Source of the DNA: Commensalibacter papalotli (ex Servin-Garciduenas et al. 2014)
GTDB taxonomy: Bacteria; Pseudomonadota; Alphaproteobacteria; Acetobacterales; Acetobacteraceae
NCBI RefSeq assembly: GCF_000527695.1
Contig: NZ_ATSX01000002.1
Span: 1-64,000, forward strand
Reading direction: 5' to 3'
DNA: 64,000 nucleotides
A program made the position numbers and the translations under genes. This document shows, in pieces, positions 259-47,684 of the stretch. The notes under the pieces were generated by a model that was not told the origin of the DNA, ran no database searches, and worked only from the letters and a program-made list of their open reading frames with translations. Every line of letters starts with the position of its first letter. The stretch's first letter is position 1.

Positions 259-1386
259 ATGAATCTTTTGTTTTCTTATATTGCTCAACCTCATCAAACT
301 TTACACTCGCTGCCGATTGCGATTGAGATAGCACGTAAACACCCTAATATCGAAGTGCATATTGCATGCACTACTCATGAACACTTAAATTATATTCAGT
401 CTATTATTGCTTTATATCCCAACACCAATTTGCATTATCATCTTTTTTCCCTTCCAAGTCTTATTCGTAAAAGAATTAAGCTGCATGGAACCAATGCAAT
501 TTTAAAATTGCTAACATTGTATTTAAACCGTGATCTCTTTCAAAAATTTTCAGCTATTATTGTCCCTGAGAGAACCTCCCTTTACTTAAAGCAATTTGGA
601 ATTACCAAACCGAAGCTCATATGGACTCGTCATGGTGCAGGAGATAGAGCAGTCGGGTTCGCAAAAGATGTGCGTAAATTTGATTTTATCCTGATGGCAG
701 GTGAAAAGATTGAACAAAGATTACTACAACAAGACTCTCTTCATCCTGGACGATACCAAACAGGGGTGTACGCGAAATTTGACATCGTTCATATATTAAG
801 GAAGCAACCTCAACCTGTTTTATTCAACAATGATAAACCTACCATTTTGTATAACCCGCACTTTAAACGACATTTATCCTCTTGGCATAAATTTGGACAT
901 AAAATCTTAAAACAATTCGCTGAGCAAAATCACTATAACCTTATTTTTGCTCCACACTTTAGACTGTTTTATCCCCCATCACCGAAAGATTACGAGGTTT
1001 TTGCAGCTTACAAACAGCATCCTCATATTTTAATTGATCTTGGAAGTGAACGTAGCATAGATATGACATATACAATTGCAGCAGATTTATATTTAGGAGA
1101 TGTCAGTAGCCAATTATATGAATTCCTGATTAAATTAAGACCATGTGTATTTTTAAACGCTCATAATATTCACTGGAAGCGTGATGAAAATTATCAATCT
1201 TGGGCTTTGGGACCTGTTATATCCTCGCCTAATCATATTATTGAAAAAATCAATAAAGCATTTACCTTACAAAAAAACTTTCTTCATTTACAAAAAGATT
1301 ATATACGCAATACATTTGGAACATTAAACTGTCCCACTGCACACATTGGGGCAAAAGCAATTGTTGATTATCTAAAAAAAGCGTAA
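259..1386 (+). CDS. CDP-glycerol glycerophosphotransferase-like transferase
   Basis: A 375-residue soluble protein with no signal peptide, first gene of a plus-strand run into the FAAL-ACP-SPT genes. Features of the Glyphos_transf / GT-B-like family are visible: RHGAGDR around residue 129, ILYNPHFKRHLSSW around 195-210, IFAPHF around 230, and the C-terminal AADLYLGDVSSQLYEFL signature near residue 275. Family members transfer glycerol-phosphate from CDP-glycerol, usually in teichoic acid synthesis, which this organism would not make. Next to sphingolipid genes it could add a phosphoglycerol-type or sugar headgroup; that role is inferred. ATG start with AAAGG upstream. It could also be a generic GT-B glycosyltransferase. 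Confidence 0.6.
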   Translation: MNLLFSYIAQPHQTLHSLPIAIEIARKHPNIEVHIACTTHEHLNYIQSIIALYPNTNLHYHLFSLPSLIRKRIKLHGTNAILKLLTLYLNRDLFQKFSAIIVPERTSLYLKQFGITKPKLIWTRHGAGDRAVGFAKDVRKFDFILMAGEKIEQRLLQQDSLHPGRYQTGVYAKFDIVHILRKQPQPVLFNNDKPTILYNPHFKRHLSSWHKFGHKILKQFAEQNHYNLIFAPHFRLFYPPSPKDYEVFAAYKQHPHILIDLGSERSIDMTYTIAADLYLGDVSSQLYEFLIKLRPCVFLNAHNIHWKRDENYQSWALGPVISSPNHIIEKINKAFTLQKNFLHLQKDYIRNTFGTLNCPTAHIGAKAIVDYLKKA

Positions 1387-1436
1387 GATAAACAGAGTAT
1401 AACAATTGTTTGTATAAACTTGGTGGAATTTTAATT

Positions 1437-3170
1437 GTGGAAATAGCAAATTATCCAACTCCGACTGAATCTGGCTTAAAGCGACGTCTAGGTGAATTTA
1501 CTTCTCTTGCTGAGGCTTTAGATTATGCAGCACAAGGTCAGTCTGGAATTAATTTTTATTCAGCCAAAGGAGTTTTATTAGAATCACTTCCTTATTCTTT
1601 GTTAAAAGAACAAGCCAAAGAAACAGCTGGAAAACTATTAACTCTTGGCCTTAAAAAAGGGGATCGCGTTGCTGTTATTGCAGAAAGCGATAGCGATTTC
1701 AGTCGCATCTTTTTTGCTTGCCAATATGCAGGTCTTATCCCTGCTCCTATGCCTTTACCTGTAGCGTTTGCTGGCAAATCTGCATATATTAATACATTAC
1801 GTGGCATGATACACAATGCCACAGCTAAGGCAGTCATCACCGCACAAACCATACAAAGTTGGACACCAGAAATTATTGATGGGTTCTCATTATGTTTTGG
1901 TGGTACTCCTGAAGAACTTATGGCTATCAAAGCTGATAAAGATATTGAATTACCAATTATTGATAGTGATGATATTTCTTATTTACAATTTTCATCTGGC
2001 AGCACACGTTTCCCAATGGGTGTTGCTGTGACACAAAAAGCGTGTCTGGCAAATGTATATGCCATTGCAAAATATGGTTTAGTGGTCAGAGAAACTGGCG
2101 ATCGCTGCGTTTCTTGGCTACCTCTTTATCATGATATGGGATTAGTTGGTTTTTTCATTACTCCAGTAACCTGTCAACTAAGTATTGATCTACTCCCAAC
2201 AAGAGATTTTGCCAGAAGGCCGCTTGTTTGGTTAGATATTATCAGTCGCAACAAAGGCACTTTATCTTACAGTCCATCTTTTGGATTTGAGCTTTGTGCA
2301 CGCCGAGCACCCACATCAACTATGGAGCTAGATCTTTCAAGTTGGAGAGCTGCTGGAATCGGCGGTGACATGATCCGGTCTCATATTCTAGAACAATTTG
2401 CCATACAATATGCACAATATGGTTTCAGTCCAAAAGCTTTTGTCGCCAGTTATGGTATGGCTGAAGCAACACTGGCTTTAACCTTTGCTCCTTTGGATAC
2501 TGGGGTAAAAACAGATACAGTTGATTTGCATATTCTCGAAACAGATGGAATTGCTAAACCTTGCAACGATCCTCATCAAAGTGTTCGCACGTTTGTATTA
2601 TGTGGCCCTATTTTACCTGGCCATGAAATGGAAGTCCGTGATGAGCAAGGAAATATTTTACCAGAACGTCATGTTGGAAGCGTTTTCGTTCGTGGACCCA
2701 GCTTGATGAAAGGTTATTTTCATCAAGAAGAAGAAACCAAACGTATTTTAAGTGCTGATGGTTGGTTGAGAACTGGTGATCTTGGCTATATGTTAAATAA
2801 TGAAATAGTGATTACAGGACGTGAAAAAGATCTAATCATTATTAATGGACGTAATATTTGGCCTCAAGATTTAGAATGGTCCGCAGAGCATCATTTTACA
2901 GCACTCAGAAGTCGTGATGTTGCTGTTTTTTCTGTAGATACCGATGAGCACGAATCCATCGTAGCATTAGTACAATGTCGCTTTCTTGATCCTCAAGACC
3001 GTCAAACATTGCAAGAAGAAATGGTCAATCTATTCAGACGTCAACACGGGGTTGAAGTCTCTGTAATCCTAGTTCCTCCGCATAGTTTACCTCAGACATC
3101 ATCAGGGAAACTGACCCGAGCACGTGCGCGCAAAATGTTATTGGATGGAGAGTTTAATATAAGCGCCTAA
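1437..3170 (+). CDS. Fatty acyl-AMP ligase / acyl-ACP synthetase (sphingolipid locus)
   Basis: ANL-superfamily adenylating enzyme, about 577 residues. It shows the AMP-binding P-loop SSGSTRFPMG (around residue 185), HDMGLVGFF (around 230, typical of FAAL proteins), SYGMAEATLAL (around 340), GWLRTGDLGY (around 441), GRNIWPQDLE in the hinge region and the SSGKLTR lysine motif near the end. FAALs activate fatty acids as acyl-AMP and load them on a carrier protein, here presumably the ACP encoded next. The open frame extends to a TTG at 1410, but I chose GTG 1437 because GGTGGA lies 9 bases upstream. Long-chain acyl-CoA ligase is the alternative, but the neighbouring ACP and PLP synthase favour acyl-ACP formation. 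Confidence 0.8.
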   Translation: MEIANYPTPTESGLKRRLGEFTSLAEALDYAAQGQSGINFYSAKGVLLESLPYSLLKEQAKETAGKLLTLGLKKGDRVAVIAESDSDFSRIFFACQYAGLIPAPMPLPVAFAGKSAYINTLRGMIHNATAKAVITAQTIQSWTPEIIDGFSLCFGGTPEELMAIKADKDIELPIIDSDDISYLQFSSGSTRFPMGVAVTQKACLANVYAIAKYGLVVRETGDRCVSWLPLYHDMGLVGFFITPVTCQLSIDLLPTRDFARRPLVWLDIISRNKGTLSYSPSFGFELCARRAPTSTMELDLSSWRAAGIGGDMIRSHILEQFAIQYAQYGFSPKAFVASYGMAEATLALTFAPLDTGVKTDTVDLHILETDGIAKPCNDPHQSVRTFVLCGPILPGHEMEVRDEQGNILPERHVGSVFVRGPSLMKGYFHQEEETKRILSADGWLRTGDLGYMLNNEIVITGREKDLIIINGRNIWPQDLEWSAEHHFTALRSRDVAVFSVDTDEHESIVALVQCRFLDPQDRQTLQEEMVNLFRRQHGVEVSVILVPPHSLPQTSSGKLTRARARKMLLDGEFNISA

Positions 3171-3172
3171 GC

Positions 3173-3214
3173 TTTTGATCAAAAGGCTGGTTGTAGAATT
3201 AAAAATAATCAGCC
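3173..3214 (+). repeat. Intercistronic palindrome and hairpin between FAAL and ACP genes
   Basis: The 81-base gap holds the perfect 12-base palindrome TTTTGATCAAAA (3173-3184), followed by GGCTG (3185-3189) that can pair with CAGCC (3210-3214). There is no clean T-run, so it is not a convincing terminator. It may be an mRNA processing or attenuation element that sets ACP expression apart from the ligase. Confidence 0.3.
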
Positions 3215-3251
3215 ATTATTAATATAATCTAATTATAAAGGGTATGCCGTC

Positions 3252-3494
3252 ATGACTGAAACGATTGAAAGCGTTTCTCAAACGATTATAGAAACACTCA
3301 TGGAAAATCCAAAAGTTCCACGTAATATAACTCCAGATAGCAAAATTATCGAAGACCTAGAATTCGATTCGTTGGCTGTTATGAATTTTGTTATGGAAAT
3401 TGAAGACAAATTGGATGTCTCTGTTCCTTTGGATCGTTTAACAGACGTTCGCACAATTCGTGATCTTGCCGAAGCCATTATTTCATTAAAGTAA
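3252..3494 (+). CDS. Acyl carrier protein dedicated to the sphingolipid locus
   Basis: An 80-residue acidic carrier protein. The phosphopantetheine site is FDSLAVMNF with Ser at about residue 40, followed by the helix-II pattern VMEIEDKLDVSVP. It differs from the housekeeping AcpP at 18285-18527, whose site is GADSLDTVE, so the window has two distinct ACPs. Placement between the fatty acyl-AMP ligase and the serine palmitoyltransferase-like gene (15 bases to the latter) matches the Caulobacter and Sphingomonas arrangement, where a dedicated ACP presents acyl chains to Spt. AAAGGG precedes the ATG. Confidence 0.85.
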   Translation: MTETIESVSQTIIETLMENPKVPRNITPDSKIIEDLEFDSLAVMNFVMEIEDKLDVSVPLDRLTDVRTIRDLAEAIISLK

Positions 3495-3508
3495 AAAGCT
3501 CAATTTTT

Positions 3509-4714
3509 ATGGATATTTTTACCAAATTTAAAACGCTTGAAACTGCCTTTGCACATCTCTCATCTATATCAGAACATAATCCTTTTGGTACTACGATTGA
3601 AAAGATGATTTCGGCTACAATCGGAATCATTAATGGTAAAGAAACTTTGCTGTTTGGCACAAATAATTACCTTGGCCTCAGCCAATCAGATGCTGCACGT
3701 CATGCTGCTGCAGATGCAGCAATGCAATATGGGGTTGGCACGACAGGTTCACGAATCGCTAATGGTACTTATTCTTTACATCAAGAATTAGAACAAGATT
3801 TAGCAAAATTTTTTAATCGTCGTTCTTGTATGGTGTTCTCTACAGGATATCAAGCAACTTTGGGTATGGTCTCTACCCTTGCAGGAAAAGACGATTATCT
3901 GTTCCTAGATGCTGATTGTCATGCAAGTATTTATGATGGCAGTCGTATGAGCCAAGCTCAGATTATTCGCTTTCGCCATAATGACGCTGATGATTTGCGC
4001 AAACGTATGCGCAGGCTTGGCGATATTCCTGGCATTAAGCTGGTTGTCGTCGAAGGCGTTTACTCTATGTTTGGTGATGTTATTCCACTAAAAGAATTTG
4101 CCCAAGTTAAAAGAGAAGAAAATGCTTATTTAATGATTGATGAAGCACATTCTTTTGGTATTTTTGGTGAACATGGCCGTGGAATTGCTGAACGAGATCA
4201 AGTAGAAGCGGATATTGACTTTACCGTTGGTACATTCTCTAAAAGTCTAGGTACCGTTGGTGGATATTGTGTTTCAGATCATCCACAAATGGATCTGTTA
4301 CGCCTTTGCACTCGACCTTATATGTTTACAGCGTCTTTACCTCCTGAAGTAATTGCTGCAACCAAAGCTAATCTGGAGATTATCAAAAATCATCCTGAGT
4401 TAATGCATAAACTAATGGATAATGCATCTCGGTTCTATCATGCATTACAAAGTGCGGGATTCTTAACAGGACCTGATATTAGCTCTGTCATCTCTGTAAT
4501 TTTAGAAGATCTTGTTCAAGCCTCTCGTTTTTGGAATAGAGTGTTAGAGTTGGGGGCATATATAAACCTCAGCCTGCCTCCTGCAACGCCTGACAGTCGC
4601 CCATTATTGCGCGCAAGTATTGCTGCTGCACATACAACTGAACAAATTGACAAGCTTGTACAAATCTATATCCAAGCCGCTCAAGATGTGGGCGTTCCTT
4701 TGAAAAAAAATTAA
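3509..4714 (+). CDS. spt: Serine palmitoyltransferase-like PLP acyltransferase (AOS family)
   Basis: A 401-residue alpha-oxoamine synthase of fold-type I. Visible landmarks are GTNNYLGLSQ (around 49-58), GTTGSRIANGTYSLHQELE (around 76-94), FSTGYQATLG, the PLP Asp/His motif DEAHSFGIFG (around 211) and the Schiff-base lysine in GTFSKSLGTVGG (around 240). The family includes Spt, BioF, Kbl and HemA. BioF and Kbl are less likely because the upstream genes are a FAAL and an ACP and the downstream convergent genes encode a lipid kinase and a cytidylyltransferase-like protein. Predicted reaction: serine + acyl-ACP (or CoA) to 3-oxo-sphinganine, the first step of ceramide synthesis. Its stop overlaps that of the convergent gene by 3 bases. 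Confidence 0.8.
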   Translation: MDIFTKFKTLETAFAHLSSISEHNPFGTTIEKMISATIGIINGKETLLFGTNNYLGLSQSDAARHAAADAAMQYGVGTTGSRIANGTYSLHQELEQDLAKFFNRRSCMVFSTGYQATLGMVSTLAGKDDYLFLDADCHASIYDGSRMSQAQIIRFRHNDADDLRKRMRRLGDIPGIKLVVVEGVYSMFGDVIPLKEFAQVKREENAYLMIDEAHSFGIFGEHGRGIAERDQVEADIDFTVGTFSKSLGTVGGYCVSDHPQMDLLRLCTRPYMFTASLPPEVIAATKANLEIIKNHPELMHKLMDNASRFYHALQSAGFLTGPDISSVISVILEDLVQASRFWNRVLELGAYINLSLPPATPDSRPLLRASIAAAHTTEQIDKLVQIYIQAAQDVGVPLKKN

Positions 4715-5643
4715 CGGTTAAAAACACCCTGGCGATAAAGTTTTATTAGAATCCAGGGTGCGTTGATTAAAGGATGTTTCTTTTGAAACGGTGTTAAATT
4801 CAAATCTATTCCTTGATGTCGCTTGATTTTCCAAGCAATATATTCAGCACCACCTTGAAATGTAAATGCTGCCTTCATAAGTCGTGCAATATTCAAAGGA
4901 CGACCCATTTTTTTCCTAAAGTTCCATTTTTTATAAGCAGTTTGTCGCTCTTTATCCGAAATATTTACTGTAAAATAGTTTGTTTGTGAGTGTTGAAAAG
5001 GAATCGATAACCCTTTCCAACCGACTTCTAACAACTGAATAAAATAATCTTCTCTATTCTCTAAAATAGACATAGGACGATTTTTTGCTTCTACTCGTAA
5101 TTCTGCACTATAGGTATGCGCAAATAAATTACACCAAAATTCTTCACCGTTTGCTTCTTTGGGACCCAAATATGCAGCCCACCAACTAGCGGTTGCGACA
5201 GCACGAACGAGACAGCCAAACAAATCTTGGCAAGCTTGATCATTCCTGCTCCACATAATTTTAACAGGTTGGCAAAACCGTGCCCACATAGTGGTATCAA
5301 TGGATTGCAATCCTGTTGCTTGCCTTAACTGCTTTAACGATAGAATCGCTACTTTAGCCCTTAAAACAACCTCGCCTTCTTTATATTCATGATATTCGAT
5401 ATTAGGAGGTAACAGCACATTAGCAAAATAGCGGCCCGTTTTGTCATTATACCAATCACTTAGATCTTCACATACAATATAAAAATCTAATAACCCTGTT
5501 AAATCTTGCTTCCACAAACTCGACCCATAATACAGAACTCCTATAGGGTTCCTCTCTTTTATAATGGATTTAATAAAATTAAAGACACATGTGGGTATAG
5601 TATTCAGTTGAGTAACGATATCTGAAAGTATGGTCATCGACAT
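4711..5643 (-). CDS. Tam41-like phosphatidate cytidylyltransferase homologue
   Basis: About 310 residues, soluble, second gene of a two-gene minus-strand unit after the lipid kinase. The N-terminus has a nucleotidyltransferase core: YYGSSLWKQ around residues 38-46, then LLDFYIV about 10 residues later, then DLSDWY. A later stretch ends in ARFCQPVKIMW. This order and spacing resemble mitochondrial Tam41 (YGSG..Q, IDFI.GV, WH, and LAGRLHKPV), which makes CDP-diacylglycerol from phosphatidate and CTP. Next to a GGDGT kinase and Spt, a substrate such as ceramide-1-phosphate is an attractive inference. The frame opens at TTG 5652; ATG 5643 (or 5637) is preferred. A generic nucleotidyltransferase remains possible. 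Confidence 0.5.
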   Translation of the reverse strand: MSMTILSDIVTQLNTIPTCVFNFIKSIIKERNPIGVLYYGSSLWKQDLTGLLDFYIVCEDLSDWYNDKTGRYFANVLLPPNIEYHEYKEGEVVLRAKVAILSLKQLRQATGLQSIDTTMWARFCQPVKIMWSRNDQACQDLFGCLVRAVATASWWAAYLGPKEANGEEFWCNLFAHTYSAELRVEAKNRPMSILENREDYFIQLLEVGWKGLSIPFQHSQTNYFTVNISDKERQTAYKKWNFRKKMGRPLNIARLMKAAFTFQGGAEYIAWKIKRHQGIDLNLTPFQKKHPLINAPWILIKLYRQGVFNR

Positions 5644-5652
5644 AAGGAACAA

Positions 5653-6627
5653 CTATAAACGTACAAAAGAAAATTCAGGGCCAACCGAGAAATAAACCTC
5701 ATGATTATCCCCTGTATCATAATGCTCGCCATCAAGAATAATCTCTTGTTGAATATTCATAGCGATTCGCTGTGCAACTCCACTTTGATAGGAAGGGCTA
5801 TTACGCAACCACATTGGAGTCTTTCCACGCAATAACGTAAAACATGCAGATATAAGTTTAGAAGGATAAGCGTTCACATTTAGATAATGTAACCGTTGAT
5901 CATCATATTTCCCTCCCCAAAAAGGCCACATACCACTGGAAAGGCTTTGTAATGTTGTCGCTAAAAATAAAAAACTATTCTCTTTAGTAACTTCCTGTTG
6001 GTCATATTGTATCTGGCAAGGCTCACCTTTTAACCACAAGTCCCGTGTTTTAGGCGCAAATAACTTTAGCAAGGCAAAAAGAATTGTAATACCAACAGCC
6101 CAATCATGAGCAAAATTCTTAAGAATTTTTGGATCATGGGCTATATTAATCGCTCTCGTAAAAGCAGCAGTACCTGAAAACATCCCTAATACAGCTGGCC
6201 TTGAAGAGTCTAACCATTCTATTTTTAATGCATGACGATGTTGTACAGAGTTAATTAAACGCTCTCTTTCCGATAAAATTTTAACTCGTTGTAATGCTTC
6301 CATTCCACGAATCCCAAAACCTATATCTTTGGCAATTAAATTAGTATTACCCGAAGGCAAAATAACCAGTTTCGGTAACTTATCTGGTGGATAAGCATGA
6401 TAAATAGCCGTCATCACCTGACTGATCGTTCCATCCCCACCATCAACAATAATACATTCTATATTCTCTGATGCATATTGAGACAGCATACTATTTAATT
6501 GTTCTATGGTGTTTGGCACACAATAGCGATGTCCTAGCCAACTTGACGCAAATTCCGAGAAATCTGGGTTTTTATTTTGATTTAGTCGACTGGTTGGATT
6601 TCTAATCAAAGCAATTTTTTGGGTCAC
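5653..6627 (-). CDS. Lipid kinase, DAGK/sphingosine kinase (LCB5) family
   Basis: A 324-residue kinase with the diacylglycerol-kinase catalytic domain: IRNPTS at residues 8-13, GGDGT at 63-67 and PSGNTN at 91-96, and a C-terminal beta domain with ILDGEHYDTGD. Members phosphorylate diacylglycerol, sphingosine or ceramide. Its position directly upstream of the Tam41-like gene, and back-to-back with an Spt operon, points to ceramide or sphingoid base as substrate, similar in kind to the Caulobacter ceramide kinase CpgB. Substrate is inferred from context. GTG start at 6627. It shares a 191-base divergent promoter region with the metallophosphoesterase gene. Confidence 0.75.
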   Translation of the reverse strand: MTQKIALIRNPTSRLNQNKNPDFSEFASSWLGHRYCVPNTIEQLNSMLSQYASENIECIIVDGGDGTISQVMTAIYHAYPPDKLPKLVILPSGNTNLIAKDIGFGIRGMEALQRVKILSERERLINSVQHRHALKIEWLDSSRPAVLGMFSGTAAFTRAINIAHDPKILKNFAHDWAVGITILFALLKLFAPKTRDLWLKGEPCQIQYDQQEVTKENSFLFLATTLQSLSSGMWPFWGGKYDDQRLHYLNVNAYPSKLISACFTLLRGKTPMWLRNSPSYQSGVAQRIAMNIQQEIILDGEHYDTGDNHEVYFSVGPEFSFVRL

Positions 6628-6818
6628 AAACTGTTTCCAACATTCTATAGATCTTGTTTTTCAGACAGAAGCATCGTAATAAAACATTCGTATATATTAA
6701 ACGCTTTATATATACTTCTTTTGTCTTTTATGAAAAATTCAATAAAAAAATCAACTATATTCTGGCAAACTTATATATTATTATGATTGAAAGATCATCA
6801 GCTAAAGGATAGTTACTT

Positions 6819-7703
6819 TTGAAACGCTTTACGATTGCTCATATTTCTGACCTTCATTTACCTATAGAGACGCTTCAATTTTCAAAGCTATCCCTTTGTA
6901 ATAAACGTTTTTTAAGCTTCTTATCTTGGCAAAAGAGGCGGTTAATTTTACAAAAGAAGAATCTTGATCTTGTCATTCAAGATATGCAAGCCAATCAGCC
7001 CGATCTTGTTTTAATTTCGGGAGATTTAACTAATCTTGCTTTGCCAGAAGAATTTAAACAAGCCGCAGACTGGTTACATCAATTATCTTTTCCGAATATT
7101 CGCGTTGTGCCAGGAAATCATGATTGTTTGGTTCAAACACAATGGTATAATACACATGCCTATTGGACCCCTTGGACAAAGGCATATCGTCAGGATGATT
7201 ATCCAACCATTACAAAAACAGATACAACGGCGATTATTGGAATCTCTACTGCTGTTCCAACATTACCTTTTTTTGCCAGTGGATATATTGATCAAAATCA
7301 ATTAGAACGTATTAAAGAAGCTTTACACAAAGCAAAAGAAGAGAAATTATTCCGTATTGTTATGTTACACCACCCCCCTGTCTCTGGTATTACCAAAGAA
7401 AGAAAAGCTTTGAGAAACAGAAGTAAATTAAAAGAAATCATTCTTGAAGAAGGCGCAGAAATGATTCTGTATGGCCATACTCATAAAACTACGACGCAAA
7501 AGTTTCTTAATACCAATATTCCAATGCTGGGGATTGCCTCGGCGTCATCAAATGCAGTTCGTATGCAAAGACAGGCTGCATGGCGAAAAATTGTTATCGA
7601 CTCCCATAATGATCACCTTCACGTTAATTTTTCAGTCAGATCTATAGATAAAAACCAACAATTTATCGAAAAATCTTGCTTTTATCTAAACCACCAACTT
7701 TAG
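6819..7703 (+). CDS. Calcineurin-like metallophosphoesterase (CpdA-type)
   Basis: A 294-residue metallophosphoesterase with the full metal-binding set: ISDLHLP (residues 9-15), SGDLTN (around 67-72), PGNHD (around 98-102), LHHPP (around 184) and YGHTHK (around 217). Relatives are cyclic-nucleotide phosphodiesterases (CpdA) and lipid-headgroup phosphatases or pyrophosphatases. As first gene of the LptF/LptG-hydroxylase-transferase operon it may trim a lipid phosphate; that is inference. TTG start at 6819 with AAAGGAT about 9 bases upstream. It ends 9 bases before lptF. Confidence 0.7.
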   Translation: MKRFTIAHISDLHLPIETLQFSKLSLCNKRFLSFLSWQKRRLILQKKNLDLVIQDMQANQPDLVLISGDLTNLALPEEFKQAADWLHQLSFPNIRVVPGNHDCLVQTQWYNTHAYWTPWTKAYRQDDYPTITKTDTTAIIGISTAVPTLPFFASGYIDQNQLERIKEALHKAKEEKLFRIVMLHHPPVSGITKERKALRNRSKLKEIILEEGAEMILYGHTHKTTTQKFLNTNIPMLGIASASSNAVRMQRQAAWRKIVIDSHNDHLHVNFSVRSIDKNQQFIEKSCFYLNHQL

Positions 7704-7712
7704 TTTCTCCCC

Positions 7713-8954
7713 TTGTCAAATAATAACTCATCCTCACATCATAAAAATTTTTTTTGGTCTCGTCCTATTCCTGGAACTTTGGATCATTATTGTATATATC
7801 TGGCATTACCGACATTTCTAATTGCACTTGGGATTATCCTTGCAGCATTAATGCTTGCACGGTTACTTGTATTGCTTGATCTACTGGCTTCAGATAACAG
7901 CCCTCTTAGTACTTTTTTAGGATTACTTGCTGATCTTGTTCCCCATTATCTAGGATTAGCTATTCCAGCAGCACTTTGTGTTGCTGTTTTCTCCAGTGTG
8001 CGGCAAATGAGCATTAACAACGAAATTGATGCTTTATTGAGTTCTGGGATTTCCTTGTTACGTTATTCGCGCCCTTATATCTTAAGTGGAATCGTGGTTA
8101 GTATTTCATGTATTATTTTATATGGTTACATCCAACCTTATGCACGTTATGATTTTCGTGCTGCTTATTTTTACGCGTCGCATGCTGGTTGGGTTCCCAA
8201 TATACAAAGCCATACCATTGTTAAACCAAGCGATAATCTTGTGATGGTTGTAGACCAAGCTACAGATCACGGCACACACTTATCTGGTGTTTTTATTCGT
8301 CAAAAAACATTTAATGAGAAAAAAAAACCAATCGAACATATTATTATTGCTAAAACAGGTACATTTTATACAGCTGACAACCGTTCTAAAATACAGCTAA
8401 ATTTATACAATGGGCAAAACTTGACTTTAACCTCAAACGGTAAAAATAATATTACTGATTTTACGCAGGCAGAAAAACAACTAAAACAAGAAGGAAAGAA
8501 GGTTATCTTTCGCAATCGTGGAGATGATGAAAGAGAACTAACTATTGTCGAGCTTTATCAACGGTTACGACATCCTACTAATTTTGTTGACGTATCGACG
8601 GGCAAAATTAAAATATTAGATATTAAAGCAGAATTTCACTTTCGCCTTGTAAGGGCATTATCAATTTTATGCATCCCCCTTCTAGCAACAGGGTTAGCCA
8701 TTATTAAAAAACGTAAAAAACGTAATTGGGGGGCACCATTAATTGCTGCAGTAACTTTAGTAACATATGATCATATTCAACAATTAGGATCTGAATTGGT
8801 TGCATCTGGGCATCACTCAGCACTGATTGCTTTATGGCTGCCTTTGTTCCTTTTTTTCATTCTTTGTTGCGCTATATTACGTTTTAAAAGTGGTTCTTTA
8901 GGACTTTCTTTCAACTTTTTATTAAAACGTCCCGCTAGTCTTATAGGTAAATAA
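7713..8954 (+). CDS. LptF/LptG-family permease (LptF-like)
   Basis: A 413-residue inner-membrane protein of the YjgP/YjgQ (LptF/G) family. It has three membrane spans in the N-terminal 130 residues, the cytoplasmic coupling segment NNEIDALLSSGISLLRY that contacts the LptB ATPase, a periplasmic beta-jellyroll domain (about 150-310) and three C-terminal spans. In LPS export LptF and LptG form the transmembrane part of LptB2FG. Here the pair is embedded between lipid-synthesis genes, whereas the housekeeping pair usually sits beside lptD or pepA, so this may be a paralogous exporter. TTG start at 7713. The stop overlaps the next start (TAATG). Confidence 0.75.
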   Translation: MSNNNSSSHHKNFFWSRPIPGTLDHYCIYLALPTFLIALGIILAALMLARLLVLLDLLASDNSPLSTFLGLLADLVPHYLGLAIPAALCVAVFSSVRQMSINNEIDALLSSGISLLRYSRPYILSGIVVSISCIILYGYIQPYARYDFRAAYFYASHAGWVPNIQSHTIVKPSDNLVMVVDQATDHGTHLSGVFIRQKTFNEKKKPIEHIIIAKTGTFYTADNRSKIQLNLYNGQNLTLTSNGKNNITDFTQAEKQLKQEGKKVIFRNRGDDERELTIVELYQRLRHPTNFVDVSTGKIKILDIKAEFHFRLVRALSILCIPLLATGLAIIKKRKKRNWGAPLIAAVTLVTYDHIQQLGSELVASGHHSALIALWLPLFLFFILCCAILRFKSGSLGLSFNFLLKRPASLIGK

Positions 8955-10054
8955 TGAAAAATATGTTTAAACAACATCAGTTGATTATTTATCTTTCTGC
9001 ACGACTATTAAGTACAGTTTTAGGGTCTGCACTGATATTAACCATAATTATGGAAGCCTTAACCCTTCTTGAACAAATGTCTCCTATTTTAGAAAGACAT
9101 TTAGGATGGAAAGGAATAGTCCATTATATGGGGCTCCATTTACCTTTACTTTTTAGTTCTGTTCTACCTTTAAGTATGTTAATTGGATCCATTGTTATGT
9201 TAACGCAGCTGACTTTAAACAGTGAGATCACTATTTTACGTTCAGCTGGATTATCAACTGTGGGGCTGATAAAAAAACTATTACCTGCAACTTTGTTACT
9301 TGGTGTCATCTGTTTTATTTTTCATAACTATATTACACCGAAAACAGAACTAAATTTAGCAATTTGGTGGAATAAAACCAACCTAACTCCTCAGCAGGAT
9401 AAAGAATTTTATTTTTATCAAGGTTTAGATATTATAAGTGTTAATTATATTGCTTATGGTGGTAGTACCATATCTGGTTTAACAATTTATAAACGTAAAG
9501 ATTTATCTCACCTCGAAGCTATTTATACCGCGGAGACAGCAGAATATAAAAATAAACAATGGACTCTTGTTAATGCCAAAGTACTTCATATTGCACCAGG
9601 AACACCTCTTGAATATACAGATCTTACCAAACCAGAGGATAAAATCTGGGAAACTTCTTTAACACCTCGTACTTTGATAAACCTTTCTATGCCCTCATTG
9701 CCACAAACTCTCCATAATATGTTTTTACAATTATCTGATAAGGCCGAACCTTTTCGTACCCCAACAAATATAATTAAAACAACCATATGGGCACGATTAT
9801 TTTTGCCTTTTACATTTATAATAATGTTAATCGTCGCCATACCAGTCATATTTATCCCACCGAGAGCTGGATTAAAAAGTTGGTTGCCTATATATTGTCT
9901 AGGAGCAGGATTGTTATTTATTATTTTTCAGGAAGTTCTACGAGCTTTAGGTAAAGCTGGGACATTGCCTGCACCGTTAGCAGTCATTCCTTCGCTCTTA
10001 ATATTCATCTTTGCAATGAGTGCTATTATTTTAATGATTGAAGAAAAACCATGA
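8954..10054 (+). CDS. LptF/LptG-family permease (LptG-like)
   Basis: A 366-residue partner of the preceding gene, same fold: N-terminal spans, coupling segment LNSEITILRSAGLSTVGLI (around 88-106), a periplasmic domain (about 130-265), then C-terminal spans including IIMLIVAIPVIFIPPRAG. It is translationally coupled both upstream (TAATG, 1 base) and downstream (ATGA, 4 bases), so exporter and hydroxylase are probably made together. Whether it works with the general LptB and moves LPS or another lipid cannot be told from this window. Confidence 0.75.
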   Translation: MKNMFKQHQLIIYLSARLLSTVLGSALILTIIMEALTLLEQMSPILERHLGWKGIVHYMGLHLPLLFSSVLPLSMLIGSIVMLTQLTLNSEITILRSAGLSTVGLIKKLLPATLLLGVICFIFHNYITPKTELNLAIWWNKTNLTPQQDKEFYFYQGLDIISVNYIAYGGSTISGLTIYKRKDLSHLEAIYTAETAEYKNKQWTLVNAKVLHIAPGTPLEYTDLTKPEDKIWETSLTPRTLINLSMPSLPQTLHNMFLQLSDKAEPFRTPTNIIKTTIWARLFLPFTFIIMLIVAIPVIFIPPRAGLKSWLPIYCLGAGLLFIIFQEVLRALGKAGTLPAPLAVIPSLLIFIFAMSAIILMIEEKP

Positions 10055-10875
10055 AAAACCAATCTATTCTCGAAATCATGCGCAATAAAGATCTCAAATC
10101 TGGGCGCAGCTACGATCTAGGTAAAATGAACTTAAAAGAATTATGGGTCGCCTATCTAACACACGGCACCATTTTGCTTTATTTTGGCCTTATTCTCGCC
10201 AGTATTGTGGGTGTTTACTATACATTCACAGGATGGGTTCCCGTTATTAGTGCCGTTTTGTTAATGATTTTTGGCTTCCCTTTGATTTGGTATATTATCC
10301 ATCGCTGGATTATGCATGTTTCTATTTTATATCGTATCAAATGGACAGCTTCATTATGGAAAAGAATCCATTTTGATCATCATCAAGACCCACATCTATT
10401 AAATGTTTTATTTGGCTCTCCTTTGAATACACTTCCAACGATTTTAATTGTTCCAGGTGGACTGGGATACCTTGTTGGTGGATTCCCTGGCTTTTTTGCT
10501 GCAATAGGAACTGCTCTTTACATGTCTTGCTTTTATGAATTTTTCCATTGTATTCAACATCTTGGGTATAAACCAAAATCAAAATATGTTCTTCATATTA
10601 AACAAGTCCACGTTTTACACCATTTTCATGATGAAAAAGGCAATTACGGGATTACTAATTATTTTTGGGATAAGCTATTTGGGACTTATTATGAAGATGC
10701 AAAAAGTCGTACTCGTAGCCCAACCGTATTCAACATGGGATATGATATAAAACAGGCTGAACACTATCCTTGGGTAATGCTTAAAACGGGTGCCCCCCCT
10801 CGTGATCGCCCTGCAGGCTCTAATTTTCGTGGTCAGAAAAAAGCCGCAGCTGAAGAAAACCAAAAGGCTGCTTAG
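10051..10875 (+). CDS. Membrane fatty acid hydroxylase (sterol desaturase superfamily)
   Basis: A 274-residue membrane diiron hydroxylase with the histidine clusters HRWIMH (84-89), HFDHHQDPH (107-115), HCIQH (166-170) and HVLHHFH (187-193), interspersed with about four hydrophobic spans. The superfamily includes yeast Scs7 and animal FA2H, which 2-hydroxylate the N-acyl chain of ceramide, and sphingoid-base hydroxylases. Acetic acid bacteria are reported to make ceramides with 2-hydroxy acyl chains, which fits the neighbourhood; assignment to the acyl chain or the base is inference. The C-terminal 30 residues are Ala/Lys/Glu-rich and disordered. Start overlaps the previous stop. Confidence 0.75.
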   Translation: MKNQSILEIMRNKDLKSGRSYDLGKMNLKELWVAYLTHGTILLYFGLILASIVGVYYTFTGWVPVISAVLLMIFGFPLIWYIIHRWIMHVSILYRIKWTASLWKRIHFDHHQDPHLLNVLFGSPLNTLPTILIVPGGLGYLVGGFPGFFAAIGTALYMSCFYEFFHCIQHLGYKPKSKYVLHIKQVHVLHHFHDEKGNYGITNYFWDKLFGTYYEDAKSRTRSPTVFNMGYDIKQAEHYPWVMLKTGAPPRDRPAGSNFRGQKKAAAEENQKAA

Positions 10876-10883
10876 GATAAAAT

Positions 10884-11648
10884 ATGAAACGTGAAACTGT
10901 TAATGTTTTAATTTTAGCTGGATCCAGAGAAGGCAAACAAGATCCTCTGGCAAAACAAGCCCACGTTTCTCACAAAGCTATTCTTCCTATATTGGGACGA
11001 CCAATGATTCATTACGTCGTCCAAGCTTTGTCTCAAATCAGCCAAGTTGACAAAATTGCTGTTATTATTGAAAACAAATCAATTGTCAAAGATATCCTAC
11101 CTGAATATATTCACTATTTACCTGCGGCTCTTGGCCCCAGTGACAGTGTAATTGAGGCTATTAAGGAATTAGGGACTCCTTTACTAGTAACAACAGCCGA
11201 TAATCCGTTATTAAAGCCTGAATGGGCTGATTTTTTCTTAAAAGAAGCAGAACGGGCACAATGTGATGTTGCTGTTGGTGTTGCATTAAAAGAGCAAATC
11301 GAAGCCGACGTGCCCGATACAAAAAGAACTTATATCAATCTTGCTGATGGTTCTTTTTCAGGATGTAACTTATTCTTATTCAGAACACCCCAAGCCATAC
11401 AAGTCGCACGATTATGGCAAAAACTTGAGCAACATCGTAAAAAACCCATCAAAATGGGATGTTTGTTAGGATACCCAATTATTTTACGGTATCTATTAAA
11501 ATGCCTTACGCGCAATGCACTTAAAAAAAGAATTTATAAATTAACCAAAGCGAAAACACATTTTATATTTATGCCTTGGGGGCAAGCCGCTGTTGATGTC
11601 GACAAACCCGAAGATTTAATTCTCGTAAATAAACTTATTCAAGATTAA
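10884..11648 (+). CDS. MobA-like NTP transferase (GT-A fold)
   Basis: A 254-residue nucleotidyltransferase. The N-terminal signature is VLILAGSREGKQDPLAKQ with the lysine-containing KAILPILGRPMIHYV, followed by TTADNPLL (around 108-115, metal-binding Asp) and a late VDVDKPEDL. This is the NTP_transf_3 / MobA / IspD type, which makes nucleotide-activated alcohols or sugars. Molybdenum-cofactor work is unlikely given the setting. It could provide an activated headgroup donor for the glycosyltransferase next door or the CDP-glycerol-type transferase at 259. Eight bases separate it from the hydroxylase gene. Confidence 0.6.
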   Translation: MKRETVNVLILAGSREGKQDPLAKQAHVSHKAILPILGRPMIHYVVQALSQISQVDKIAVIIENKSIVKDILPEYIHYLPAALGPSDSVIEAIKELGTPLLVTTADNPLLKPEWADFFLKEAERAQCDVAVGVALKEQIEADVPDTKRTYINLADGSFSGCNLFLFRTPQAIQVARLWQKLEQHRKKPIKMGCLLGYPIILRYLLKCLTRNALKKRIYKLTKAKTHFIFMPWGQAAVDVDKPEDLILVNKLIQD

Positions 11649-12787: not shown

Positions 12788-13699
12788 TTATAAGCCCCGC
12801 AATAATCCCAATTTCTTTTTTACGTGATAACCAATATCTATCTTTAATCGCTCTATTGGAGATACTGCCATCTTCTTGGCATCGATCAAAGTATATTCCC
12901 CCATAGCACTTAATGTATGAACACCTTGGCAGTAATCTTGAAATATTGAAGCCTGTGGAAATAATTGATTTATAACATGAGCTTCAAAATCATCTGGTGT
13001 TAATTTTGATATTCTCAGAAAAGATAAACTTCCTCCATAAGTCTTTGTACAATCTTGGGTTGGTAAAATAATGTCACCATTAATTACTAAAACACTACCC
13101 CCTGGTCGAGAGCTAGAGGGTGTTATTCGAACAGGATTACATGGATGTAACTGCCATGGACCTACTAGACTTTCAGAATACGCAACAGATAATACACTTT
13201 GACGACTATAACCTGAATCGGCAGGCGTATAAAACATCCACCAAAGACCATTATGGAAAAAGACACTCGGATCAATAACAATGTCTGGGAAAGAAAATTC
13301 TTGAACTGGTTGCCATTGATAAGGAAATAAAGTCGCTTTGTATAATGTCGTTTTTCCAGATTTAAATGCCTCAGGCAACATATAGATATTGCCTTTATCT
13401 TCTATTAAAATTGGATAAGACAAGTGCCAAGCTTCCTCAAGAACCAAGGCTCTATCTAACAGCTGCATTGATTTATTATAAACCAGGACTTCTATACGTC
13501 CGTGCCGATCCCTGTAATTATAACTTTCTGCAAAAACGTAAAGTTTTTCATCTAAACATAAACCAAAAGGATCTGCTAAAAACTGAAAGGCTGGTTCTTC
13601 ATCCAGCCAATGCACATGATCAACGCCTTTTGTCACGACCTCAGCCATTGGCGCTTTGATAATGCCTAAACGCCAGATATCTGTCTCATAAATCGACAC
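12788..13699 (-). CDS. Beta-propeller protein resembling the N-terminal domain of GINT1
   Basis: A 303-residue soluble protein with GH43-like propeller repeats: FLADPFGLCLDEKLYVFAE (around 39-57), AWHLSYPILIEDKGNIYMLPE (around 89-109), VIDPSVFFHNGLWWMFYT (around 141-158). The phrases ADPF..LY.F.E and WHLSYP....G.IYM.PE match my memory of the N-terminal domain of plant GINT1, the glucosamine inositol-phosphorylceramide transferase. Here the domain stands alone, without the GT64 half. Given the sphingolipid genes nearby, a role in headgroup glycosylation is plausible but inferred. GTG start; 14 bases after the monooxygenase gene. Confidence 0.55.
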   Translation of the reverse strand: MSIYETDIWRLGIIKAPMAEVVTKGVDHVHWLDEEPAFQFLADPFGLCLDEKLYVFAESYNYRDRHGRIEVLVYNKSMQLLDRALVLEEAWHLSYPILIEDKGNIYMLPEAFKSGKTTLYKATLFPYQWQPVQEFSFPDIVIDPSVFFHNGLWWMFYTPADSGYSRQSVLSVAYSESLVGPWQLHPCNPVRITPSSSRPGGSVLVINGDIILPTQDCTKTYGGSLSFLRISKLTPDDFEAHVINQLFPQASIFQDYCQGVHTLSAMGEYTLIDAKKMAVSPIERLKIDIGYHVKKKLGLLRGL

Positions 13700-42624: not shown

Positions 42625-43287
42625 TTAAACACTTTCAAACATATTTTTTTGGTGAACAAAGTTATTTAATTGCCTATAAGCAAGTCCAGCATCCACCCCT
42701 AATTTAATTAATCCAGAAATCTGTGCTGGATTGACAAGTAAACTCTTAGCCATCTGAGATATTTTTAAATTACCGTCATGAGATAAAGCCAAACAAGCTA
42801 ACGGAGGCAAATCCCTTGCCGCAGAATCACAAACAACTCTTAAAACTGCAAAGGGGATTTTATGATCTTCACAATATTGCGCAACAATACCACTTTCCAT
42901 ATCTAGAGCCACACAACCTGTCTGCACAAAAAGCTTTTGCTTTTCAGCAGATGCCGTAATAATCTCATCGCTGTGCAATAAAGCGCCAACTTTAATTCGG
43001 GATTTTTCGGCACCTAGCTTTAACCGTAAAGCAGGATCCGAAACATAATCTTTACCCCTTACGTGAATAACATTAGGAAGTAAAATCGTTCCAGCTTTAA
43101 TTAACGGATCTAATCCTGCTGCGAAACCAAAAGACACAATCGAGGTAACTTTTGCTGCAATCAAACGCTTTAATGCAGATTTTGCACCTTCTTTGGTTGC
43201 ACCACTTGCTTCAATAGCTGCTGGATATAAATGACGAGCTAACTTCGCCTCTGATTGCATTCCAACCAAAACACCAATACGTTGCAT
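42625..43287 (-). CDS. hpnG: Hopanoid-associated nucleoside phosphorylase HpnG
   Basis: A 220-residue PNP/UDP-family protein: IGVLVGMQSEAKLAR at the start, SFGFAAGLDP, GALLHSDEIITA, VALDMESGIVAQYC (around 125-138) and VVCDSAARDLPP. HpnG removes adenine from adenosylhopane, giving ribosylhopane during bacteriohopanetetrol synthesis. Its start overlaps the shc stop (TAATG). HpnH, which makes adenosylhopane, is not in this window. Confidence 0.93.
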   Translation of the reverse strand: MQRIGVLVGMQSEAKLARHLYPAAIEASGATKEGAKSALKRLIAAKVTSIVSFGFAAGLDPLIKAGTILLPNVIHVRGKDYVSDPALRLKLGAEKSRIKVGALLHSDEIITASAEKQKLFVQTGCVALDMESGIVAQYCEDHKIPFAVLRVVCDSAARDLPPLACLALSHDGNLKISQMAKSLLVNPAQISGLIKLGVDAGLAYRQLNNFVHQKNMFESV

Positions 43288-45251
43288 TAGAAACCAACCT
43301 CGACTTTACCAGTATTACTAGATTGTAGATTACGAAAACGAGATAACGCAAATAAAGGAAAAAATTGACGATATCCATGATAACGTAGGTAAAAGACCCT
43401 TGGGAAACCAATCGCATTATATGGTTTTTCATCCCATTGCCCATCTTCCTCTTGGTTTTCCATCAACCATTGAATACCTTTTTGTACTGCTGGATGGTTA
43501 TGTTGACCTGCTGCCATTAATCCAAGCAAAGCCCAAGCCGTTTGAGAAGGAAGGCTGGTATGATATTGTCCCGGAGTACCACCTTCATAGGATTCTTCAC
43601 CTTCACCCCAACCACCATCAGGACGTTGAACACAAAGCAACCAATCAACAGCTTTCTTTACCGCGGGATCTTGATTAGAAATACCGACCGCATTGAAAGC
43701 ACATAATGCGGACCAGGTTCCATAAATATAATTCGTTCCCCAACGACCAAACCACGCACCAAAACTCTCTTGTTCAGCACGTAAAAAATTCATTCCCCGA
43801 TCAATGACTGCCTTATCCTCTGGATGTCCCAATTGCGCAAGAAAAGAAATACAACGTGCTGCAACATCCACTGTTGGTGGGTCAAGCAATGCACCATGAT
43901 CTGAGAATGGTATATGATTCAACAGCATTTTATCATTATCAATATCAAATGCACCCCAGCCACCATTAGAGCTTTGCATTCCAATAATCCAATGACGCGC
44001 ACGTTCAATTGATTCTTGATGCTCTGGTTTTCCTTCTCGATGTAATAACATCCCAACAACAGCAGTATCATCAACGTCCGGATAATAATCGTTATTATAT
44101 TGGAATGCCCATCCACCAGGGGCAACATCTGGACAATTAATTGCCCAATCGCCCTTTACATCCAAAATCTGACGCTCTTTTAACCACTTAGATGCCTTGG
44201 CAAGCTTATCCATTGTTTTTTCACGATCTTCTGCACGAATACCAGAAGCCGTTTCCATCATGGCATGCCCTGTCAATGCTGTATCCCAAATTGGAGAAAC
44301 ACAAGGTTGGCAATATGCCTCATCATCCTTGACAACCATCAGTTTTTTTACTGATTTCCAGGCAATTACTGCGCGAGGATCATCATCACGCATACCCATA
44401 CAACGAAATGCCATCACAGAATTCGCCATTGCTGGATAAATCGCACCCAATCCATCCTCGCCGTTCAAACGTTTTTCAATAAATTCTACTGTTTTCTTTT
44501 GTGCATGTTTACGTAAAAAACTAGGAAATAGTTTTTCCATAGGACGAACAACTTTATCAAGATATTTAAATAAATATCCCCATTGAGAACGAAATGGACC
44601 TTTAATCCATTCTTTAATTTGATCAGGTGGTGTTATAAAAAGTTCTTGAACATGAATATTATAACGATTAACAGCTCTACCCTTCAAAGAAACCAACAAA
44701 ACCAATGGTGCAATCACTGCTCTGGACCAGTAAGACATATTCCAGACTGAGAATAAAGCCCATTTTGGCATTAACATCAATTCAACAGGCATTGCAGGGG
44801 TTGCATACCAAGGGACTTCACCAAACAAGGCTAACTGAGTACGTGTAAAAACATTTGCCGTTTCCGCGCCACCATGAGCCAAAATTGCCGTTCTGGCACG
44901 TATCATATGCGGTGCATCAACATCATCGCCAATCGCTTTTAATGCAAAATATGCTTTGACAGAGGCTGAAATATCGAATTTACCACCATAATAAAGTGGC
45001 CATCCGCCATGATCCCCTTGAATTCGACGTAAATATACACCGATTTTTTCTTGTAATTCTGTATCAATACGATCAAGAAAATGTTCTAATAATACATATT
45101 CTGCAGGAATTGTTGCGTCAGCTTCTAATTCAAAAACCCAATGTCCATCCTCGTTTTGACGATTTGCTAAGATATTTTGTGCCTGCAAAATAGCACGATC
45201 CAATGCTTCGTCTTTTATTGGCTTTTCTAAAGAGTCAACATGATTCAGCAT
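43287..45251 (-). CDS. shc: Squalene-hopene cyclase
   Basis: A 654-residue class II terpene cyclase. Several QW repeats (GDHGGWPLYYGG, MQSSNGGWGAFD, QRPDGGWGEGEE, NQEEDGQWDEKPYN), the catalytic acid motif DVDDTA (around 370) and GTWSALCAFNAVG. Cyclises squalene to hopene/hopanol at the inner membrane. ATG 45251 is selected by AAGGAAAT upstream; the open frame extends to 45317 with no family likeness. Sixth gene of the operon. Confidence 0.97.
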   Translation of the reverse strand: MLNHVDSLEKPIKDEALDRAILQAQNILANRQNEDGHWVFELEADATIPAEYVLLEHFLDRIDTELQEKIGVYLRRIQGDHGGWPLYYGGKFDISASVKAYFALKAIGDDVDAPHMIRARTAILAHGGAETANVFTRTQLALFGEVPWYATPAMPVELMLMPKWALFSVWNMSYWSRAVIAPLVLLVSLKGRAVNRYNIHVQELFITPPDQIKEWIKGPFRSQWGYLFKYLDKVVRPMEKLFPSFLRKHAQKKTVEFIEKRLNGEDGLGAIYPAMANSVMAFRCMGMRDDDPRAVIAWKSVKKLMVVKDDEAYCQPCVSPIWDTALTGHAMMETASGIRAEDREKTMDKLAKASKWLKERQILDVKGDWAINCPDVAPGGWAFQYNNDYYPDVDDTAVVGMLLHREGKPEHQESIERARHWIIGMQSSNGGWGAFDIDNDKMLLNHIPFSDHGALLDPPTVDVAARCISFLAQLGHPEDKAVIDRGMNFLRAEQESFGAWFGRWGTNYIYGTWSALCAFNAVGISNQDPAVKKAVDWLLCVQRPDGGWGEGEESYEGGTPGQYHTSLPSQTAWALLGLMAAGQHNHPAVQKGIQWLMENQEEDGQWDEKPYNAIGFPRVFYLRYHGYRQFFPLFALSRFRNLQSSNTGKVEVGF

Positions 45252-45335
45252 AGTCAAATATTTCCTTTTTATTGATTCAATACAAAGTGTTGAAAGCGAA
45301 TGAACATCTTTCAACAATTATAATCATATATATTC

Positions 45336-46640
45336 TTAAACGATTTTAGAAGAAAAAACTGCTTCAGCAGCCCCAAACCCAGAACGAATAGCCCCCTCAA
45401 TTGTTGCAGGAAGCCCCGTTGCAACCCAATCACCCGCCAAAAAAAGATTTTGATATGGTGTGTAACAAGAAGGCCTACGATGATTTTGCTCAACTGTAGC
45501 AACAAAGCTTGCCCTTTTTTCCCATAATAAACGATGATTAGGAATGGCTTGAGGTAAAGGTGTTTCTATAACAGGAGATAAAACCTCACAAACTTCTTGC
45601 CAAATTAACGAGGCAAGATTTTCATGCTGACATCCTGTAAAACGATTAGCCGCACTGACCGTAATTGAAATGACACCAGGCCTTACAAAAATCCATTCAC
45701 TTATACCACCAATGACACCCACAAATTTAGCTTTATCTATACTACCTTTAATCCGCAAATTTGGATCTACTGCGTAATGTAGATTTAATATACTTTCAAA
45801 TTGATTAGGAACTTTAACCTTAGGACAAACAGCACCAAGTATTTGCTCTGCGACATGCGCACTTAATGCTAGGATAACAGTATCTTCTGGGCCCACATCT
45901 ATTTTATTATTATTCATAATAAAATAATCAATCTTACCGTCTTGGACATGTAACTCTGAAAGCCTTGATTTAGTATTAATTATACCACCTTGCAAAGCAA
46001 TCAAAGATACTGCTGGCTGCACGAAACTTTCAGAAAGGCCTATTTTAGGAAAATAAGGAATACATCCCTTCCCACCTTTCATCAAAGACTGACGCACCAC
46101 AGAGCCCATTAATAAAGCACTGCCAGCATCACAAGACGTATTTAATGCAGAAACTGCAAAAGGTTGTAATAACCGACGTGATAGCTGTCCATTTACCAAA
46201 CAATCAGCAACAGTTTTTTGAGTATCTGCTTTTAATAATTTCCATAACGCCAACAATTCTGGAAATTTAAAATCTGGCACGCGATGTTTGGCAAAAAATA
46301 ACCACCAAGGAAAACGACCTTTTGATAATAATAAATCCCAACGTTTTCCTTCTTCTAAATCAACGAAAGGAAATAAAGGATACCCAGATCCAGTCAAACT
46401 ATTGGTTGCGTCAATTAAATTCAAATATTTAAAAACAGCGTCATTGCCTGATAAAATCAGATGATTACCATTATCGATCGTACGATCTAGATTAGCATCA
46501 TAAAAAGAACGTGCTCTGCCCCCCAAAGACGGACTGCTTTCATATAGAATAACCTGAGCATCAGATCTTTGAGATAAAGAAACCGCAGCTGCCAGCCCTG
46601 CTAACCCGCCACCAATAATATGAATATGTTTTTTTGCCAT
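45336..46640 (-). CDS. hpnE: Hydroxysqualene dehydroxylase HpnE
   Basis: A 434-residue FAD amine-oxidase-fold protein: HIHIIGGGLAGLAAAVSLSQ at the N-terminus, ESSPSLGGRARSF, DNGNHLILSG and the C-terminal LFLAGDWVATGLPATIEGAIRS (FAD closing motif). Reduces hydroxysqualene to squalene, third step of the HpnCDE route. Nine bases after hpnD. Confidence 0.94.
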   Translation of the reverse strand: MAKKHIHIIGGGLAGLAAAVSLSQRSDAQVILYESSPSLGGRARSFYDANLDRTIDNGNHLILSGNDAVFKYLNLIDATNSLTGSGYPLFPFVDLEEGKRWDLLLSKGRFPWWLFFAKHRVPDFKFPELLALWKLLKADTQKTVADCLVNGQLSRRLLQPFAVSALNTSCDAGSALLMGSVVRQSLMKGGKGCIPYFPKIGLSESFVQPAVSLIALQGGIINTKSRLSELHVQDGKIDYFIMNNNKIDVGPEDTVILALSAHVAEQILGAVCPKVKVPNQFESILNLHYAVDPNLRIKGSIDKAKFVGVIGGISEWIFVRPGVISITVSAANRFTGCQHENLASLIWQEVCEVLSPVIETPLPQAIPNHRLLWEKRASFVATVEQNHRRPSCYTPYQNLFLAGDWVATGLPATIEGAIRSGFGAAEAVFSSKIV

Positions 46641-46649
46641 CCCAAAAAT

Positions 46650-47546: not shown

Positions 47547-47684
47547 AATTTGATCAGACCTTTCTTTAATGACAATAAAACTCAGTGCACAACTGTCAAT
47601 TTTGAAAAAACATACAGCTTTAAGCTATATATCCTTTTCTTTTAATTGGATACAAACAAATATCATCTATCTCATCACATATTT

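Follow-up and report, generated by a model that had tools for sequence, protein, structure and literature searches.

Next to the serine palmitoyltransferase gene (spt) of an Acetobacteraceae genome close to Commensalibacter (2.33 Mb), a lipid kinase gene is directly followed by a gene for a protein resembling the mitochondrial enzyme Tam41. Does this pair phosphorylate and then cytidylate a ceramide, and would such a route be new to bacteria? The window (the whole stretch of DNA that was analysed, 64,000 nt) includes a sphingolipid cluster spanning positions 259-11648, in which the following genes were assigned:

259-1386 (+): PF04464 protein (CDP-glycerol:poly(glycerophosphate) glycerophosphotransferase family), 23.3 bits, slightly above the cut-off of 22.1
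1410-3170 (+): fatty acyl-AMP ligase family protein in the AasR position, NF006624, 868.5 bits (cut-off 600)
3252-3494 (+): acyl carrier protein (ACP), PF00550, 3.1e-12
3509-4714 (+): serine palmitoyltransferase (Spt), NCBIfam NF047599, 601.6 bits (cut-off 500)
4711-5652 (-): CpgC-like protein, predicted Tam41-type nucleotidyltransferase, 313 aa from TTG at 5652 (ATG at 5643); assigned by fold and active-site match to Tam41 and by co-occurrence with Spt
5653-6627 (-): CpgB-like lipid kinase, probable ceramide kinase, 324 aa, motif VDGGDGT; beside cpgC in 58/61 loci
6819-7703 (+): calcineurin-like phosphoesterase, CC_1158-like by position, PF00149, 1.6e-16
7713-8954 (+): LptF/LptG family permease, LptG2-like by position, PF03739, 1.4e-54
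8954-10054 (+): LptF/LptG family permease, LptF2-like by position, PF03739, 5.6e-59
10051-10875 (+): fatty acid hydroxylase family protein, PF04116, 2.2e-21
10884-11648 (+): MobA/IspD-like nucleotidyltransferase, CpgD- or CC_1153-like, PF12804 1.9e-13 and PF02348 6.9e-8; best solved relative 2dpw

Organization of the gene pair

The Tam41-like and kinase genes are the two reverse-strand members of the cluster, set between the block of PF04464, ligase, ACP and spt genes and the block of phosphoesterase, two LptF/LptG permease, hydroxylase and nucleotidyltransferase genes. The kinase contains a diacylglycerol kinase catalytic domain (PF00781, E 5e-11, 42.7 bits for a cut-off of 23.6) with the GGDGT motif, and the 4711-5652 protein carries YYGSSLWKQ, LLDF and RFCQPVKI. 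The 3' end of the kinase gene at 5653 directly adjoins the TTG at 5652. As the 3' end of spt is at 4714, spt and the Tam41-like gene converge with an overlap of four bases. The initial annotation had described a GGDGT kinase followed by a protein with YGSS..Q, LLDF and QPVKI, back to back with Spt; both reading frames, their motifs and the arrangement with spt are present as it claimed.

The corresponding pair of Caulobacter crescentus

The ceramide phosphoglycerate (CPG/CPG2) pathway of Caulobacter includes the neighbouring genes spt, CC_1161 (cpgC) and CC_1160 (cpgB) (PMC11324152). The C. crescentus locus (CC_1160-CC_1161, CCNA_01218-01219) and the window are alike in Spt, in a Tam41-like or CDP-DAG-synthase-like protein and in a lipid kinase, and in both an acyl ligase, an ACP, a phosphoesterase and LptF2/LptG2 are encoded near the pair (PMC11324152). 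The window genes match cpgB and cpgC by synteny and description, not by sequence comparison, and we use these names in that sense. The same report describes that loss of CC_1160 or CC_1161 abolishes CPG, that four further genes are needed for CPG2, and that after loss of CC_1152 or CC_1153 CPG stays and CPG2 is abolished (PMC11324152). CpgB of Caulobacter is a demonstrated ceramide kinase (PMC10331486) and, by synteny with it, the window kinase is probably one as well. CpgD, a separate phosphoglycerate cytidylyltransferase, makes CDP-glycerate according to a study whose account leaves CpgC open (PMC12275187), and a text of May 2026 still terms the mechanism of CpgC unidentified (PMC13228409).

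An NDP-activated ceramide formed via CC_1161 was already suggested in 2024, in the Conclusions of PMC11324152. The gene pair and the activation hypothesis are thus in print for Caulobacter and the system is not new. The initial annotation had seen here a new branch of bacterial lipid chemistry; this claim is not supported, given the same pair in Caulobacter, the proven CpgB and the suggested NDP-ceramide (PMC11324152, PMC10331486).

Structural relationship of CpgC with Tam41

An AlphaFold2 model of the window CpgC was built with 26 homologues (pLDDT 88.9, pTM 0.86). The top Foldseek matches were 7ecd, the CTP-Mg-bound Tam41 of a bacterium (E 1.8e-8), and the fungal Tam41 structures 6ig4 and 6ig2, followed by aminoglycoside nucleotidyltransferases (E 1.4e-5). 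With VIA, the three Tam41 entries obtained Z values of 17.7, 16.0 and 15.6, against 6.6 for the next match. The TM-score is moderate (0.57 by query length) and the identity in the structural alignment is about 13%. The CpgC profile also matched the two solved Tam41 sequences with hhalign (E 1.3e-4); with gap columns dropped the score was 33.3, and none of 200 column shuffles exceeded 19.8. With the narrower profile A1, the match was weak (E 0.069, probability 0.8).

Sequence searches alone did not recover this relationship for the window protein: no match to PF09139, the Pfam family of Tam41, was found with Pfam or in the search of its own genome, NCBIfam yielded no family for it, and neither CpgC proteins nor CpgC profiles reached Tam41 when searched against the PDB. 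At E <= 0.1, PF09139 matched two of 40 CpgC homologues, with 23.1 bits (below the cut-off of 24) and 28.8 bits (above it). Among sampled genomes, one of 289 from the class and one of 299 from the phylum contained a match, both below the cut-off, and in both the matching protein was a CpgC relative beside a cpgB-like kinase.

The resemblance to mitochondrial Tam41 proposed in the initial annotation, which had recommended structure prediction as a check, is therefore borne out by a fold match specific to Tam41. On its predicted structure, the product of 4711-5652 is a Tam41-type nucleotidyltransferase. A common fold alone does not prove the substrate.

Conservation of the active site

The active site of 40 CpgC proteins was compared with fungal and Firmicutes Tam41 sequences (numbering of the 310-residue form of the window protein). 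In the profile alignment, ten active-site residues kept in 39 or 40 of the CpgC proteins correspond to Tam41, nine of them identical and one similar. Tyr39, Gly40, Asp53, Lys97, Arg122, Pro126 and Arg183 are invariant, Ser41 and Tyr178 are conserved in 39/40, and these nine are identical in both Tam41. Glu181, also invariant in CpgC, is replaced by Asp in both Tam41. The residue two positions after Asp53 is non-acidic in CpgC as in both Tam41, in agreement with the report that Tam41 keeps just one of the three usual acids (PMC11646218). The catalytic residues are thus conserved in the homologues, as the proposal of a cytidylyltransferase had supposed.

CpgC shares with Tam41/TAMM41 (PMC7018664, PMC11646218) and Firmicutes Tam41 (7ecd) the nucleotidyltransferase fold with its following domain, the single catalytic Asp and the motifs YGS, K, RF..P and Y..[DE].R. 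It differs from them by its low identity (about 13%), by lying mostly outside PF09139, by its sphingolipid gene context and by two glutamines found in place of Asp and Lys. At the first of these positions (105), where both Tam41 have Asp, 27 of the 40 CpgC proteins have Gln and four have Asp; the second, Gln125, is invariant in CpgC and is Lys in both Tam41.

These two differences could mean that, in the same pathway, CpgC acts as a nucleotidyltransferase with a different acceptor or donor, such as another NTP, phosphoglycerate or a head-group intermediate; of the lower-ranked structural relatives (12 or more), nine are nucleotidyltransferases with other acceptors. We consider this unlikely, in view of the separate phosphoglycerate cytidylyltransferase of Caulobacter (PMC12275187) and of the coupling of CpgC, in 58 of 61 loci, to the kinase making ceramide-1-phosphate.

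Distribution and linkage to kinase and Spt

CpgC was detected in 54 of 200 Acetobacteraceae. Among 385 genomes of Alphaproteobacteria, 42 contain CpgC and 48 contain Spt: both proteins are present in 41, CpgC alone in one and Spt alone in seven (Fisher p 9e-47, a test that ignores kinship between genomes). In the Spt search (E <= 1e-110) the Escherichia coli control was also positive, and the matches counted had at least 432 bits. In the 41 genomes, cpgC and spt lie within 3 kb in 28 cases (27 on opposite strands), farther apart on one contig in four and on separate contigs in nine. The kinase occurs in the same locus as cpgC in 58/61 loci or, since three genomes are counted twice, in 55/58 genomes. 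The motif [GA]GDG[TS] is present in 57 of the 58 kinase loci; the 58th is cut by a contig end. The association of kinase and Tam41-like gene is real and beyond chance.

Twenty more Acetobacteraceae regions were compared: all of them contain the ligase, ACP, Spt, cpgC, cpgB, hydroxylase and nucleotidyltransferase, and 19 contain the phosphoesterase with both LptF/LptG permeases. The hydroxylase was present in 8 of 10 regions from other families. The initial annotation was to be given up if the Tam41 fold, the conserved residues or the linkage of homologues to kinase and Spt failed to appear; all three were found and none of these grounds applies. The sole CpgC relative recovered by the contig scan came from Commensalibacter communis (75% identity). 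No kinase was recognized near cpgC in three loci (L046, L049 and L050), and the L046 protein is a CpgC relative above the Pfam cut-off for Tam41.

The distribution bears on the idea that CpgC acts on phosphatidate as a second CDP-diacylglycerol synthase, in the manner of mitochondrial and Firmicutes Tam41. This idea has the Tam41 fold in its favour, together with a bacterial Tam41 reported to make CDP-DAG (PMC11646218). We hold it to be very improbable: a CdsA is encoded in the same genome (PF01148, 1.9e-49), CpgC is nearly confined to genomes with Spt (41/42), and in Caulobacter the loss of CpgC removes CPG (PMC11324152). As a main reading, a housekeeping CDP-DAG synthase was rejected because CdsA is present and CpgC follows Spt. 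Like the proposed CpgC, CdsA would join CMP to a lipid phosphate, but it has an unrelated integral membrane fold and its gene is located elsewhere in the genome.

Proposed formation of CDP-ceramide

The best reading is that the pair yields an activated sphingolipid, and we think it probable that CpgC forms CDP-ceramide from ceramide-1-phosphate and CTP. As suggested by fold and active site, CpgC would be a membrane-peripheral Tam41-type enzyme binding CTP through the invariant catalytic Asp53 and Mg2+; the phosphate of ceramide-1-phosphate would attack CTP at its alpha-phosphate, so that CDP-ceramide is formed and pyrophosphate released. CDP-ceramide and glycerate or phosphoglycerate would then give ceramide phosphoglycerate and CMP. 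Since loss of CC_1152 or CC_1153 spares CPG (PMC11324152), the first head group does not require the CDP-glycerate that CpgD supplies, in keeping with activation on the lipid side.

Alternatively, CpgC might join glycerate or phosphoglycerate straight to ceramide-1-phosphate, with no CDP-lipid. Direct attachment was earlier proposed from mass spectrometry and is compatible with the disappearance of CPG upon loss of CC_1161, but the same report terms it energetically unfavourable (PMC11324152), and the fold and conserved residues of CpgC are those of the CTP-binding Tam41. This alternative seems improbable to us. From the route put forward in the initial annotation, phosphorylation and cytidylation of a ceramide thus stand as the best reading, supported by the kinase, the Tam41 fold, the active-site residues and the linkage to Spt; only its novelty is lost.

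Formation of CDP-ceramide would reveal an activated sphingolipid on which our literature search, with this and similar terms, found no paper, and would link a sphingolipid enzyme of bacteria with Tam41, the cardiolipin enzyme of mitochondria. Among the matches listed for the literature on Acetobacteraceae sphingolipids, nothing concerned this cluster.

Candidates for the condensing enzyme in Acetobacteraceae

The scheme calls for an enzyme using CDP-ceramide. CDP-alcohol phosphatidyltransferases form the family PF01066, whose Pfam wording is presumably that used to describe the Caulobacter gene CC_1159. According to its description, the product of this gene displaces CMP from a CDP-alcohol (PMC11324152). 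PF01066 genes were searched in 31 of the 54 CpgC-bearing Acetobacteraceae, taken from the top of the list with a few from lower in it: exactly two were present in 26/31, and none lay beside cpgC in any of the 31. In contrast to Caulobacter, the Acetobacteraceae cluster has no PF01066 gene beside cpgC and contains the PF04464 protein instead. In other families, a PF01066 gene is located within 3 kb of cpgC (by coordinates) in at least 16 of 37 CpgC genomes, and it adjoins cpgB in two of four inspected regions (L090 and L092). The low number of PF01066 genes is not itself tied to CpgC, because 17 CpgC-negative Acetobacteraceae have one to four (mean 2.6); just two are also found in 7 of the 37 CpgC genomes of other families.

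A dedicated PF01066 condensing enzyme was looked for in the cluster of the window and none was found there. The two PF01066 proteins of the genome are PgsA (TIGR00560, above the cut-off) and a PssA-like protein (TIGR00473, 105.3 bits, slightly below the cut-off of 107), adjoined by genes that read as uvrC and psd (a reading, not a family test). The PF01066 pattern suggests that the user of CDP-ceramide in this lineage is not a PF01066-type enzyme of the cluster; candidates would be the housekeeping PssA and PgsA, or some protein with a different fold. The absence of a PF01066 gene from the Acetobacteraceae clusters narrows the hunt for the missing condensing enzyme.

The PF04464 protein (259-1386) is a candidate head-group transferase. 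PF04464 had no match in the Caulobacter control genome, and 11 of the 20 Acetobacteraceae loci contain a relative of the protein, as do two of ten other loci. A wider scheme, which we regard as possible though rather doubtful, is that CDP-ceramide is real and made by the Tam41-type enzyme, that PssA or PgsA of Acetobacteraceae consume it, so that one CDP-lipid scheme serves glycerolipids and sphingolipids, and that the PF04464 protein adds a second head group, replacing the CDP-alcohol transferase found beside cpgC elsewhere.

Additional observations

The 259-1386 product is the sole protein of the PF04464 (teichoic-acid-type glycerophosphotransferase) family in this Gram-negative genome. In locus L090, 14515-15726 (+), between LptF2 and the hydroxylase, encodes a 403-aa protein with PF01066 at residues 213-338 and about 200 extra N-terminal residues, perhaps a fusion of a nucleotidyltransferase with a CDP-alcohol transferase. 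Near the sphingolipid cluster of the window, the product of 12788-13699 (-) matches PF24793 (2.7e-37), the N-terminal domain family of the plant enzyme glucosamine inositolphosphorylceramide transferase, and has relatives in 8 of the 20 Acetobacteraceae regions. Finally, positions 42625-49834 contain a hopanoid-type cluster encoding a squalene-hopene cyclase, a squalene/phytoene synthase, amine-oxidase-family and phosphorylase-family proteins and a glycosyltransferase.
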